From NCBI GenBank assembly GCA_002699025.1, contig PABA01000019.1, forward strand, positions 1 through 35,953: DNA of 35,953 nt, read 5' to 3'. The position numbers and the translations under genes are program-made. This document shows positions 25,681-30,680 of this stretch, piece after piece. A model generated the notes under the pieces. The model did not search any database and was not told the DNA's origin. It worked only from the letters and a program-made list of their open reading frames with translations. This DNA comes from Sandaracinus sp. (GTDB lineage: Bacteria > Myxococcota_A > Polyangia > Polyangiales > Houyiibacteriaceae). Positions within the stretch are counted from its first letter, which is position 1; each line of letters opens with the position of its first letter.

Positions 25681-25710
25681 CGTCAGGCGAGATGACGTAT
25701 GCTGCGGGCC
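25681..25710 (+). promoter_or_regulatory. Dyad operator candidate and leaderless -10 before the His-rich gene
   Basis: CGTCA (25681-25685) and TGACG (25693-25697) form an inverted repeat with a 7-base spacer that abuts TATGCT (25698-25703), a -10-like hexamer. A GTG start codon follows after seven more bases (25711). The 17-base dyad would fill the space between -35 and -10, where repressors or MerR-type activators bind. No convincing -35 is seen, which fits a regulated promoter. Confidence 0.45.
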
Positions 25711-26100
25711 GTGGAGCCTCGCCCCGGCCGACGCCTGGAGGCCGCCCTCGCCCTCCTCGTCTGGGCGCTGGGGGGCGAGCTCATGCCCTTGGCCCACGTC
25801 GCTCTCCACGCGGCGCTGCCGGGCCACGACCACGGCGCGCGCGTCCACGACCACGGCGAGGGTCCCCATCGGCACGAGCGGCCCGGGACGGCGGCCGCGG
25901 AGCGCGACCCGGCTTCGCCCGAGGACGCGCACGGGGACGGGAGCTTCGCGCACCGCGATCTCGCCGCGGCCCCGAGCGCGCTGGCGCTGCCGGCGATCGC
26001 CCCGGCCCGCCTCGGCGCGCCGCTCTCCCGGCGCGCGCCCGCGCGCCCCGGTGAAGGCAGAGCGCTCCGCGCCTCGGCGCGCGGACCGCCGGTCGTCTGA
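25711..26100 (+). CDS. Small His-rich exported or membrane-anchored protein
   Basis: From GTG 25711 the product has 129 residues; an overlapping ATG at 25699 lies inside the proposed -10 and would add four. A hydrophobic helix (LEAALALLVWALGGELMPLA, about residues 9-28) is followed by a His-rich stretch (HVALHAALPGHDHGARVHDH, then HRHERP and DAHGDGSFAHRDL). The tail is Ala/Arg/Pro-rich. Clustered His with Asp/Glu commonly binds zinc, nickel, cobalt or copper, so a periplasmic metal-binding or sensing role is plausible. It precedes the receptor gene by 175 bases on the same strand. No family is recognised, and part of the composition may reflect high GC. Confidence 0.6.
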   Translation: MEPRPGRRLEAALALLVWALGGELMPLAHVALHAALPGHDHGARVHDHGEGPHRHERPGTAAAERDPASPEDAHGDGSFAHRDLAAAPSALALPAIAPARLGAPLSRRAPARPGEGRALRASARGPPVV

Positions 26101-26169
26101 AGGGAGCGCCGCGCCGCCCTCGGCGTGGCCCGCAGCGCGGGACGCCCGGCCTCGTTCGAGGCCGGCACC

Positions 26170-26220
26170 GACCTGCGAACGGGTCCGACCTGCGAACGGG
26201 TTCGACCCGCGAACGCCTCC
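26170..26220. repeat. 17-bp direct repeats upstream of the receptor gene
   Basis: Three units (26170-26186, 26187-26203, 26204-26220) of GACCTGCGAACGGGTCC, the third diverged. At the second junction CGGGT-TCG-ACCCG forms a small perfect hairpin. The array lies 56 bases before the receptor ATG and could be a set of protein-binding sites or a leader RNA structure. Confidence 0.7.
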
Positions 26221-26275
26221 GTCCGGGGGCGCGCCCTGCGCTCGGCTCCGCCGAGCCTCCTCTTCCGAGACGACC

Positions 26276-29029
26276 ATGACCGCACGCCGACCGTTCGAGG
26301 TCGCTGCGCTCGCGCTCGTGCTGCTCGCGTCCTCCGCCGAGGCCCAGCCTCCGCCCGACGTGACGCCGCCGAGCGTGCGCGCCGCGCGTCCTCCCCGCTG
26401 GCCCGAAGGCGCCTCCGCCGACGGGGAGGTCGAGGTGCGCCTGCGCCTCACCGTCGGCGCCGACGGCCGGGTCCGCGCCGTCGACCTGGTCGGTCGGGCG
26501 GGGCCCCTCTTCGACGCGGCGGCGCTCCGGCACGCGGTGGGGCTTCGCTTCGAGCCCGCCCGCCGGGGCGGCGAGCCGGTCTCGGCCGTGGTCGACTACG
26601 TCGTGCGCTTCACGCCGCCCCGTCCGGCGGCCCGCCCGGTGGAGGGGGCCGGGCCCGAGGACGCGGCGGCAGGCGGGGAGGCCACGGGCCCGGGTGTGTC
26701 CGCGGCGGACCCGGAGGAGGCGCCGCTCGAGGACGCGGCGGCTGGCGCGGAGGCCAGGGCAGGCTCGGGCACTTCCGCGCCGACCGAAGGGCCGGACGGC
26801 TCGCTCTCCGTCCGCTCCGACCCGCGCGGTGAGGAGCGCGAGGACGCCGCCGAGCCGGGCGAGCGCGCGGCCGGGGGAGGCGCCGGTCCCGAGGAGGAGG
26901 AAGAGGAGGAGGGCGCGCCGCGCTATGGGGCGGCCACCACCGTCGACCTCCGGGTCGCCGAGCGCCCCCTCGCCGCGGCCAGCGAGCAGCGCATCGAGGT
27001 CGAGCGCCTCGGCGACGTCCCGCGCGTCCACGCCGAGCAGCTGCTCACCCTCGCCCCCGGCGTCGTGCTCGCCAACCACGGCGGCGAGGGCAAGGCCTCG
27101 ACGCTCTTCCTCCGCGGCTTCGACGCCGGCGAGGGGCAGGACGTCGAGGTGCTGGTCGAGGGCGTGCCGCTCAACGAGCCCTCGAACGCCCACCAGCACG
27201 GCTACGCCGACGCCCACTTCCTCATCCCGGAGCTCGTCGGCGCGGTGCGCGTTCTCCCGGGCCCCTTCGATCCGGCCCAGGGGGACTTCGCCCTCGCCGG
27301 CACGGCCGAGTACACGCTCGGCGCGCCGCGGGAGGGGCTCACGGTGCTCGGTGGCTGGGGCTCGTTCCGCCGCCGGCGCCTCCTGCTCCTCTGGGGCGAC
27401 GGGGAGCGGAGCTTCGCCGGCTTCGAGGTGCAGGGCGGCGCCGGCTTCGGCGCCAACCGCGCGCATCGGCTCGTGCGCCTGCTCGCGCGCTGGGGCGGCG
27501 GCGACGAGCGGCTCGGCTGGAGCGTCCTCGCCGGCAGCCACGCGCTCCGCTTCGACTCGGCCGGCGTCGTGCGCGAGGACGCCGTCCGGGCCGGCGAGCT
27601 CCCCTGCGAGGGGGGCGAGAGCGCCCAGCGCTTCTGCACCCATGACCCGAACCAGGGCGGCTCCGCCGCGCGTCACCTGCTCGTCGGGACCGTGCGCTGG
27701 GCGCGGCCGCACCGCCGCTACGTCCAGCGCGCCTGGCTGCAGCTCAGGCGGAGCCGCTTCCGCGAGAACTTCACCTTCGCGCTGATCGACGAGCGCGGCG
27801 ACGGCCTCGACGAGCAGACCGACGTGCTCGCCTTCGGGCTCCGCGGCGACTTCACCTCCGATCGCGTCTGGCGGGGCCGGCGCCAGCAGCTCGAGCTCGG
27901 CTGGCTCGCCCGTCACGATCGCGGTGACGCGCGCATGTGGCGGCTGCGGCGGAGCACGGGTGAGCCGCATACGGTCGTCTTCGACAGCGGCCTCGCGCTC
28001 ACCCGCGCCGCCGCTCACCTCAGCGGGACGCTCCGGCTCCCGCGGGTGACCCTCCGCGCCGGCGGCCGGATCGCGGCCTTCGCCTCCACGGTCACCGATC
28101 GCGCGCTCCCGGACGCGGACCGCATGGGCGAGCGCCTGACGAGTCAGACGGCGGACGCCTTCGGGGTGGCCGTGCTGCCCCGGACCACGCTGGCGCTCCA
28201 CCTCATCGACGCCGAAGCCGCCCACGTCGACTGGCTCTCGAGCCTCGGCCTCGGCGCCCGCTCGAGCGACGCCCAGGCGCTCTCCGAAGGCGAGGACGCC
28301 CCCTTCGCGCGCGCCCGCGCCGTCGAGAGCGGCCTCCGCATGCGGATCGCGCACCCGGCCTTCGCCTTCGAGGGCCGCGCCGGCGTCTTCTGGACCCGCG
28401 TCGCCGACGACCTGCTCTTCGATCCCGAGGCCGGCCGAAACGTGCCCATCGGCGCCACGAACCGCTTCGGCGCCTTCGCCTCGGCGCGCCTCCGCGTCAC
28501 CGACTGGGCCGAGGCGCTCGCGAGCTGGAGCTGGACCGAGGCCCATCGGCCGGGCGACGACGCGGCGCCGCTCGCGCTCCGGGACGGGCCGGCGCTCCCC
28601 TTCGTGCCGCGCATGGTCGGCCGCGTCGACGCGGCCTTCCGCCGCGCGCTCCCGCTCCGCCGGGGCGCGCTGCTCGTCGGCGCGGCGCTCGGGGCCGGCG
28701 TGATCGGTCGCCGTCCCTTGCCCCTCGGCGAGGAGGCGGCCCCCTACGGCACCGTCGACGTGTCCGCGCGCGTCGGCTGGCGCTTCGTCGAGCTCCGCTT
28801 CGCGGTCCGCAACCTCCTCGACGCGCAGACGCGCCCGGTCGAGCTCCACTACGAGAGCCGCCTCGACCCGGACGATCCCTTCGGCTCGCTCCGCGCCGCG
28901 CGCCACTTCGCCGCCGGCCCACCCCGCGAGCTCTTCCTCACCCTCGCCCTCCACCTCGACCCGGCCTGGCTCGCGCCGGGGGACGAGGACGAGGGCCCGG
29001 CCTCCGACGACGAACCGAGCGATCCATGA
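26276..29029 (+). CDS. TonB-dependent outer-membrane receptor with N-terminal TonB C-domain
   Basis: The 917-residue product has a signal peptide (cleavage after about A23, SSAEA|Q). Residues about 38-112 match a TonB C-terminal domain (RPPRWPEGA, LRLTVGADGRVRAVDLVGRA, FDAAALRHAVGLRFEPA). An acidic Ala/Glu/Gly linker spans about 113-217. The plug domain starts near 219, with LAPGVVLANHGGEGKASTLF, LRGFDAGEGQDVEVLVEGVP and AHQHGYADAHFLIPELVG. The rest is a beta-barrel with many alternating strands. Receptors of this kind import siderophores, cobalamin, metals or glycans. No STN domain is present; the TonB-like domain occupies its place. The final ATGA overlap couples it to the next lipoprotein gene. 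Confidence 0.9.
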   Translation: MTARRPFEVAALALVLLASSAEAQPPPDVTPPSVRAARPPRWPEGASADGEVEVRLRLTVGADGRVRAVDLVGRAGPLFDAAALRHAVGLRFEPARRGGEPVSAVVDYVVRFTPPRPAARPVEGAGPEDAAAGGEATGPGVSAADPEEAPLEDAAAGAEARAGSGTSAPTEGPDGSLSVRSDPRGEEREDAAEPGERAAGGGAGPEEEEEEEGAPRYGAATTVDLRVAERPLAAASEQRIEVERLGDVPRVHAEQLLTLAPGVVLANHGGEGKASTLFLRGFDAGEGQDVEVLVEGVPLNEPSNAHQHGYADAHFLIPELVGAVRVLPGPFDPAQGDFALAGTAEYTLGAPREGLTVLGGWGSFRRRRLLLLWGDGERSFAGFEVQGGAGFGANRAHRLVRLLARWGGGDERLGWSVLAGSHALRFDSAGVVREDAVRAGELPCEGGESAQRFCTHDPNQGGSAARHLLVGTVRWARPHRRYVQRAWLQLRRSRFRENFTFALIDERGDGLDEQTDVLAFGLRGDFTSDRVWRGRRQQLELGWLARHDRGDARMWRLRRSTGEPHTVVFDSGLALTRAAAHLSGTLRLPRVTLRAGGRIAAFASTVTDRALPDADRMGERLTSQTADAFGVAVLPRTTLALHLIDAEAAHVDWLSSLGLGARSSDAQALSEGEDAPFARARAVESGLRMRIAHPAFAFEGRAGVFWTRVADDLLFDPEAGRNVPIGATNRFGAFASARLRVTDWAEALASWSWTEAHRPGDDAAPLALRDGPALPFVPRMVGRVDAAFRRALPLRRGALLVGAALGAGVIGRRPLPLGEEAAPYGTVDVSARVGWRFVELRFAVRNLLDAQTRPVELHYESRLDPDDPFGSLRAARHFAAGPPRELFLTLALHLDPAWLAPGDEDEGPASDDEPSDP

Positions 29030-29802
29030 CCCGCGCCACCCTCTTCGCCGCCCTCGCCTCCCTCCTCCTCGCCCTCGCGCCCGGCGGCTGCGCCGGGGAG
29101 ACGGCCGGCCGCCTCGTCGAGATCGAAGTGGCCCTCCGCGGCGATCCGGAGGCGCGCACGCACGGGACGAGCGCGGGCTGGGCCATCGAGCTGGACGAGG
29201 CCTGGCTCGTGGCGGGGCCGGTCCACGTCTTCGCCCCGGCGGACGAGCCCGTGGCCGCGCGGCTCGCCCCGCTCGCTCTCGCCCGGGCCCACGGCGGCTT
29301 CGATCCGCTCGACGGACGCGCGGTGCGCGCGGAGCTCCTCGAGCAGGCCGCGATCGACGCGCTGGATGGGACGCCCATGCGCTGGCTGGCGCCCGCCGAG
29401 GAGGGGCCCGTGGACGAGCTCTCCGTCGGCCTCGAGGCGCCGCTCGCGGGGGCGGGCGTCGCCACGCGCGGGCATCAGGCGTGGGTGCGCGGGCGCGCGA
29501 GCCGGGGCGGGGAGACGGTCGCCTTCGAGGGCGGCCTGGACCTCAGCGGGGACGGCGTGGCGAGGCGCGTGGGGAACGTGGCCCTGGACGCGACGCTCGG
29601 CGCGGGTGGGCGGTTGACCATCACGCTCGACGCGCGCCGCTGGCTCGACGGCGTGGCCTTCGATCGCCTGGACGCGGTGGAGGGCGAGGTCGCGATGTTC
29701 GAGCCCGGCGACCAGGCGAGCGCCGCCTGGCGCGTCGGGCTCCACGACCCGGGCGCGTACCGCGCGTCCTGGCGAGACGACTCGGAAGGAGAAGAACGAT
29801 GA
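29026..29802 (+). CDS. Lipoprotein 1 of the receptor locus
   Basis: The 258-residue product has a signal peptide with a lipobox-like end APGGC (C22; the -3 position is Pro, so imperfect). Its domain plan matches the next gene: a strand pair GWAIELDEAWLVAGPVHVF, later GHQAWVRGRASRGGETVAFE, then GGRLTITLDARRWLDGVAFD. It is probably attached to the outer membrane facing the periplasm or outside. It overlaps the receptor stop and the next start, both as ATGA, so the three products are likely made together. I know no named family. Partner function in ligand capture for the receptor is inferred from context. Confidence 0.75.
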   Translation: MTRATLFAALASLLLALAPGGCAGETAGRLVEIEVALRGDPEARTHGTSAGWAIELDEAWLVAGPVHVFAPADEPVAARLAPLALARAHGGFDPLDGRAVRAELLEQAAIDALDGTPMRWLAPAEEGPVDELSVGLEAPLAGAGVATRGHQAWVRGRASRGGETVAFEGGLDLSGDGVARRVGNVALDATLGAGGRLTITLDARRWLDGVAFDRLDAVEGEVAMFEPGDQASAAWRVGLHDPGAYRASWRDDSEGEER

Positions 29803-30680
29803 AGAGCGGGATCGCGATGGGTGCGCTGCTCGCGCTGGCCGGGCTGGTCGGTTGCGGGGACGGAGGCGCGAGCGGGACGCTGCGGCTGACGCTGAACGGC
29901 GAGGAGGCGTCGCGGGAGGGCTTCCCGGTGGGCGAGGGCGAGGACCGGATCGCCTTCGCCGATGGGTGGAGCGTGGAGTTCGAGAAGGTGCTGGTCTCCA
30001 TCGTCGACGTGCGCCTCGCGGCGAGTGATGGGGACGAGGCCGGCGTGGCGGTCGATCCGATCGTCGCGGACCTCCACCTGGGCACGCCGGAGGGCTGGCG
30101 CCTCGAGGGGGTGCCGGCGCGCCGCTGGGATCGCTTCTCCTACCGCTTCGGCGCGCCGACGATGGACGCGCGGCGCGTGAACGCGGTGGAGGACGCGGAC
30201 CTCGAGGCGATGGTGATGGGCGGCCACGCCTTCTGGATCGAGGGGGTCGCCCGGAGGGACGGGCAGGAGGTGCCCTTCCGCTGGGGGCTGCCGGTGGCGG
30301 TCGACAACGTGCGCTGCGTGAACGGGGTCGACGAGACGGACGGCCTGGTCATCGGGGAGGGGGGGCTGAGCGAGGCGGAGCTGACGGTGCACCTCGACCA
30401 CCTCTTCTTCGACAGCCTGGCGAGCGAGGAGCCGGGCATGCGCTTCGAGGCGATGGCGGCGGTGGCCGGGGAGGGCCCGCTCACGCTCGAGGACCTGGCG
30501 GCGCAGTCGATCACGGACGTGCGCGACGCGGAGGGGGAGCCGATCGAGGTGGAGGGCGCGCCGCTGATCTACGACCCGGGGGACACGCCGCTCGAGGCGC
30601 GGGACCTGCGCGGGTTCGTGCTCGCGGCGGCGCGGACGATGGGGCACTTCCAGGGGGAGGGCCACTGCGACTACGAGTGA
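29799..30680 (+). CDS. Lipoprotein 2 of the receptor locus, paralogue of lipoprotein 1
   Basis: The 293-residue product has a signal peptide with a good lipobox LVGC (C19). Key segments are GWSVEFEKVLVSIVDVRLAA, GHAFWIEGVARRDGQEVPFR, VDNVRCVNGVDETDG and EAELTVHLDHLFFDSLA; these align in order with lipoprotein 1. Conserved His (GHAFW, HLDH) and acidic residues could bind a metal or other ligand. AAGGAG (29786-29791) precedes the ATG. The C-terminus is GHFQGEGHCDYE. A hairpin follows at 30697-30732. It is the last gene of the receptor operon. Function is not known. Confidence 0.78.
   Translation: MKSGIAMGALLALAGLVGCGDGGASGTLRLTLNGEEASREGFPVGEGEDRIAFADGWSVEFEKVLVSIVDVRLAASDGDEAGVAVDPIVADLHLGTPEGWRLEGVPARRWDRFSYRFGAPTMDARRVNAVEDADLEAMVMGGHAFWIEGVARRDGQEVPFRWGLPVAVDNVRCVNGVDETDGLVIGEGGLSEAELTVHLDHLFFDSLASEEPGMRFEAMAAVAGEGPLTLEDLAAQSITDVRDAEGEPIEVEGAPLIYDPGDTPLEARDLRGFVLAAARTMGHFQGEGHCDYE

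Follow-up and report, generated by a model that had tools for sequence, protein, structure and literature searches.

The window analysed here comprises 35,953 nucleotides of Sandaracinus sp. contig PABA01000019.1, and its segment 25681-30680 had originally been predicted to hold a TonB-linked metal uptake locus. Four genes were found, all open at or near where they had been predicted; they and all features of this segment given below lie on the plus strand. The first, H (25699-26100), encodes a small His-rich protein of 133 aa, with an N-terminal hydrophobic/signal segment and a stretch rich in His and Asp, both of which had been recognised before. It is followed by R (26276-29029), which encodes a TonB-dependent outer-membrane receptor of 917 aa, and by two lipoprotein genes, LA (29026-29802, 258 aa) and LB (29799-30680, 293 aa). 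The last three genes are joined through ATGA overlaps, as claimed, and these were located at 29026-29029 (R/LA) and 29799-29802 (LA/LB). A dyad plus -10 element had also been proposed in front of H. The dyad CGTCA-N7-TGACG is present (25681-25697), but a promoter role was given no weight: the -10-like hexamer TATGCT (25698-25703) covers the start ATG of H (25699), and the element was therefore rejected as the H promoter. Nothing like it was apparent by eye in the upstream sequences of relatives.

The receptor and the two lipoproteins

R carries a TonB_C-like domain (residues 42-113, 26399..26614), with 28.9 bits versus a Pfam cut-off of 24.6, and a Plug domain (residues 235-343, 26978..27304), with 44.4 bits versus 23.9. 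Both scores exceed the curated cut-offs, which bears out the fusion of a TonB C-terminal-like domain to a TonB-dependent receptor. The Plug includes His306, invariant across 38 relatives. A TonB-dependent receptor has a Plug followed by a beta-barrel, and R was classed as one; among 38 aligned receptors, 37 have the Plug, 35 the barrel and 17 TonB_C, while the barrel model gave no match in the window R itself. The fusion seems to be nothing unusual among myxobacteria, because it occurs in these 17 relatives and the N-terminal half of R weakly matches the model of the myxochelin receptor MxcH (NF038079). MxcH likewise has a myxobacterial TonB_C domain fused N-terminally to a TonB-dependent receptor, but R scores 48.8 bits against a cut-off of 925 bits and matches with its N-terminal part only. 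In the PDB, the R profile is nearest to the PQQ receptor PqqU/YncD (3e-21), followed by BtuB (1e-10), a proximity that does not settle the substrate. As the best solved match is of neither kind, R was not found to fall in a known glycan or siderophore clade, in keeping with the original prediction.

LA and LB are paralogous lipoproteins, as had been proposed from their shared order of motifs. A profile comparison found them homologous (97.5%, E 7e-12), and the lipobox cysteines of the two (C22, C19) are invariant or nearly so. Searches of Pfam, NCBIfam and PDB sequences with H, LA and LB gave nothing meaningful. AlphaFold models were built from alignments of 57 sequences for LB and 54 for LA, with mean pLDDT values of 93.3 and 87.1. 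The top PDB match of the LB model was MbnP of Methylosinus trichosporium (7l6g; Foldseek E 1e-4), with Z 10.5 over 192 residues and 6.2 for the next structure, and the LA model gave the same top match (Z 9.5 over 193 residues, next 6.1). Both lipoproteins are thus predicted to share the MbnP fold, a similarity of fold only, which goes beyond the original prediction. MbnP (PF20243) is a copper protein encoded in methanobactin loci and elsewhere, and LA and LB resemble it in predicted fold but differ from it in several ways: they gave no Pfam match to PF20243 at E up to 1, reached a probability of only 12% against a profile of the MbnP proteins from relatives' loci, and have other conserved residues. 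Its di-haem partner MbnH is not labelled in the window, although some MbnH genes lie near a few relatives. In LB, Cys173, His198, Asp200, His201, His283 and Cys290 are invariant in all 57 sequences. The likely metal ligands would be His198-x-x-His201 and His283, with Cys173 and Cys290 probably forming a disulphide.

Conservation of the cassette and its Zur-type neighbourhoods

R-LA-LB is a real cassette whose order is kept across Myxococcota. Of 58 relatives, 34 have LB, and its profile matched in 129 of the 379 genomes of the phylum. The neighbourhoods were read with a simple purpose-written gene caller based on codon usage, so gene starts are approximate, and yielded 133 adjacent R-LA pairs and 143 LA-LB pairs (some loci being represented twice), with median gaps of 8 and 17 nt. 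The R-LA-LB order is the rule, and was seen in genera including Myxococcus, Corallococcus, Pyxidicoccus, Sorangium and Polyangium; Myxococcus xanthus (L204) has H in front as well, in the order H-R-LA-LB. The search for the same gene order in other Myxococcota, suggested at the outset, therefore showed its conservation across order and phylum; the lipoproteins occur mostly with the receptor, and the neighbourhood is conserved in relatives. In three loci (L114, L115 and L116), LB sits in a conserved gene row with R and LA not nearby. A Myxococcus-like H-R-LA-LB locus was also found in a record titled Comamonas sp. KCTC 72670 (L222, BNCN01000020.1), which is probably mislabelled or contaminated.

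In the LB tree, the window groups with L040-L045, L166 and L173, and most members of this clade carry H. Its sister (support 1.0) is a clade with AztD, ZigA and the palindromic box described below. The box is also missing from most of a large Myxococcaceae/Polyangiaceae clade, in which H is present in many of the Myxococcaceae and some of the others have MbnP and MbnH genes as neighbours. The putative metal ligands of LB are identical in the box clade and in the window clade.

Many relatives have the palindrome TGCAAC-N3-GTTGCA upstream of R, and it also stands ahead of genes for ZigA/COG0523, AztD-like, Fur-family and DUF1826 proteins. It scored at least 9.8 of 12 in 31 of 150 upstream regions, and shuffles rarely matched. 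We read it as a Zur-type box because it precedes DUF1826, COG0523 and Fur-family genes, the first two of which have Zur links in other bacteria (PMC2770081, PMC5786701). In other genomes it precedes Fur-family, COG0523, DUF1826, MerC, ABC and R genes, once as a dense island with two Fur-family, two ZigA-like, ABC and R genes (L269-L271, G376:C3, about 44-86 kb), apparently a zinc-limitation island. The cassette itself is accompanied in several relatives by genes for AztD-like proteins, ZigA/COG0523, Fur-family regulators, GTP cyclohydrolase I (named from sequence), MerC or a Cu/Zn permease. Several of these neighbours lie below curated cut-offs (AztD-like about 175 versus 400 bits, ZigA just below with 595 versus 600) and are accordingly called "-like" instead of proven family members. 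The Zur-type neighbourhoods of the relatives point to zinc.

A candidate for the conserved metal-regulator site that had been suggested for a check thus exists upstream of R in many relatives, but it is absent from the window cassette: no site within 1 mismatch occurs in the window, and two with 2-3 mismatches lie elsewhere. A second R-LA-LB cassette of the same genome does have the box (G000 contig C114, L039:6553-11159). Upstream of this cassette, on the opposite strand, lies a gene for a MacB-like ABC transporter, and Thg1 and DUF1826 genes follow downstream. The whole genome holds only five sites at up to 1 mismatch, two of them on C114, before the second cassette and before the DUF1826 gene; not every genome has an excess of boxes over the control pattern, and single sites are not to be trusted. 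Another site with 1 mismatch lies between a His/Cys-rich small ORF of 110 aa and an SO_0444-like permease (L283:5048-6872, G000:C143); this ORF may be another metal leader, or the arrangement may be due to chance.

The small His-rich ORF upstream of the receptor

H had been implied to hand metal to the system. Its homologues share an N-terminal hydrophobic segment, a P-x-x-H at its end and a His-rich middle, and contain a HxxxxxxH pair that is invariant in 14 aligned sequences (His78 and His85 in the window, HGDGSFAH, 25930..25953). The window H ends in RGPP-VV, the RGPP being encoded at 26080..26091 (residues 128-131 of 133), and its homologues have C-terminal tails of R(A/G)PP, or PQGP in Myxococcaceae. 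The second His and the tail are separated by 42 residues in the window and by 42-45 in all matches, even though the length of H ranges from 104 to 217 aa; the L147 homologue has an insertion in this gap and falls just outside the pattern. RAPP and RGPP have been shown experimentally to arrest ribosomes in many contexts; the RGPP arrest is the most stable, in many phyla no tetrapeptide is avoided more, and genes related to TonB are overrepresented behind leaders of this kind (PMC12992588). H has the features of these leaders, with RGPP near the end of a small ORF of exported type and R on the same strand 175 nt downstream. The PQGP tail of Myxococcaceae lies outside the tested arrest motifs.

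Small ORFs ending up to 700 nt upstream of a gene were scanned for HxxxxxxH, 41 to 45 residues and RAPP, RGPP or PQGP before the stop. This pattern, which was defined after some matching sequences had been seen, precedes 35 of 148 R genes and 4 of 148 LA genes; it was absent before all 176 LB genes and all 1582 other genes. The four LA cases are cassettes where R is missing or rearranged. The leader stands directly before LA-LB instead of R in L138, L139, L147 and L045, and in L139 and L147 it comes after R. A few other tails were found on His-rich ORFs upstream. A different His/Cys-rich small ORF precedes R at L059:10925-11371, L113:5073-5423 and L144:4359-4763, with the tails APKNSPPA, APKTSPPA and APSNSPP, and may represent another type of leader; a Zur-type box is present in L113 as well. 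A small ORF 156 nt before R in Archangium (L216) has HGVGSVEH and the tail QSQAP, a variant of PQGP.

Because of its RGPP tail, the nearly fixed spacing to HxxxxxxH and the long gap before R, H looks like a candidate metal-sensing arrest peptide (uORF) and not a capture protein, as far as its sequence tells. The gaps between H and R range from 56 to 563 nt. That of the window (26101..26275, 175 nt) is strongly foldable and is a candidate site of leader-dependent control. As a Rho signal, a C>G bubble was computed: C exceeds G across most of H, the gap and the start of R, but with a peak no higher than the 96th percentile of the window the signal is weak. A strong box and the leader never occur together in 84 receptor clusters, of which 52 have neither. 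We do not claim mutual exclusion: with zero overlap at the strict score, the box is present in 0 of 12 clusters with H versus 14 of 72 others at clade level (p = 0.20, not significant).

The closest known arrangement is that of CruR in Bordetella pertussis, where a CXXC, 45 residues, RAPP and a gap of 162 nt precede a TonB-dependent transporter, and copper on the nascent chain relieves stalling so that Rho terminates (PMC9426467). The CruR-BfrG/CrtA operon resembles the window locus in its small exported leader ORF followed by the transporter, in the fixed distance of the metal motif to a RAPP-type tail and in the length of the gap. It differs in its CXXC, where H has HxxxxxxH, and in its PepSY_TM protein, where two lipoproteins follow R here. 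H is not a member of DUF2946 (PF11162), the family of the CruR leader, by test, with no match to the family and no CXXC; among 14 homologues, four matched at E up to 1 (best 0.0022). CutF-like leaders, including the His-only clusters 14 and 17, share with H a signal segment, metal-type residues, a C-terminal proline motif and a same-strand gene within 1000 nt downstream (PMC9973294). These two clusters, however, precede HupE/UreJ, whereas H precedes a receptor and lipoproteins. H is therefore of the known kind of proline-tailed metal leaders, a variant with histidines that heads a new type of operon. No earlier description of this combination was found in the open papers searched.

Proposed control and metal of the cassette

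The original reading of a TonB-linked metal-uptake set stands as far as the receptor-lipoprotein cassette is conserved and its relatives lie in Zur-type neighbourhoods, but the role of the first gene differs. We consider it reasonably probable that R-LA-LB is a TonB-dependent importer, most likely of zinc, under a histidine-type arrest-peptide leader instead of Zur. Gene order, conservation, homology, predicted folds, the sensor-spacer-arrest pattern and the Zur-type box of relatives were observed; which metal is carried and by what route, the stalling, and which way the switch works are what we infer. R would transport the metal or a metal chelate through the outer membrane, and LA and LB, anchored in the membrane, would bind it beside R and hand it onward, H taking no part in transport itself. 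At low metal, a ribosome translating H would stall at the C-terminal RGPP, and the stalled ribosome would keep the R-LA-LB message alive, either because Rho is blocked, as in CruR, or because the start site of R is opened. Either route may apply, the C>G signal being weak and the gap strongly foldable. Metal on HxxxxxxH, which 42 residues upstream would lie approximately at the exit of the ribosomal tunnel, would relieve the stall and shut R-LA-LB off. ZnuD and other Zur-regulated TonB-dependent zinc receptors are similar in the proposed role, and sister cassettes are under Zur-type control, but the window cassette has no Zur-type box. The structures of ZnuD and OprC are absent among the PDB matches listed for the R profile, which proves nothing.

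The sister clade speaks for zinc, and so do the LB residues, which are constant across the box and leader clades. The main rival is copper, with the same architecture and leader, H sensing copper as CruR does and R-LA-LB importing copper or its chelate. MbnP and MbnH are tied to copper, and MbnP/MbnH pairs adjoin cassettes without the box in L045/L172, L056/L196, L208, L238 and L241; LA and LB have the predicted fold of MbnP, and several clade members have a C-x4-C next to the His cluster. There is precedent as well, as both CruR and CutF are leaders that sense copper, and MbnPH-like genes occur in operons of the CruR type (PMC9426467, PMC9973294). However, the window H has no cysteine, the NCBIfam matches of R include no copper-receptor model, the putative ligands of the window LB recur unchanged in the box clade, and it is the AztD/ZigA/box clade that lies closest in the LB tree, so we regard copper as possible but rather unlikely. 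A metallophore, nickel/cobalt or a non-metal cofactor such as pyrroloquinoline quinone is a still less probable substrate. The PDB proximity of R to PqqU/YncD and BtuB would fit such a substrate, as would the His-only CutF-like leaders, which are read as nickel/cobalt because of HupE/UreJ (PMC9973294), but nearness of beta-barrels tells little of substrate, and the Zur-type neighbourhoods of the relatives favour zinc.

The other question is whether H acts as a protein. A metal chaperone or buffer, in the periplasm or anchored in the membrane, that feeds the system and has an incidental tail would agree with the His/Asp-rich stretch, the hydrophobic N-terminus of exported type and the co-directional position in the operon. 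It would leave as coincidences the presence of so strongly avoided a tetrapeptide at the C-terminus of H (PMC12992588), a distance to the histidines that hardly changes while the length does, in a pattern missing before all 1582 control genes, and a gap of 175 nt in an otherwise overlapping operon. We therefore find a chaperone very improbable.

Within the preferred reading, of a zinc importer under an arrest-peptide leader, we propose only tentatively that H is a zinc-sensing nascent chain, in which zinc on the emerging histidines would release the RGPP arrest. Such a leader would take the place of Zur with a control that acts after transcription on this kind of uptake cassette, and one genome would govern related cassettes in two ways. 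These cassettes, one with a Zur-type box and one with the leader, offer a pair for comparison. The two lipoproteins with a predicted MbnP fold give a new setting to a fold hitherto known from copper biology, here with zinc-type neighbourhoods. The experimentally studied metal-sensing arrest leaders that we found, CruR and CutF, are cysteine-based and linked to copper. If the proposal is true, a histidine leader with its spacing kept in distant myxobacteria would extend nascent-chain metal sensing beyond copper.
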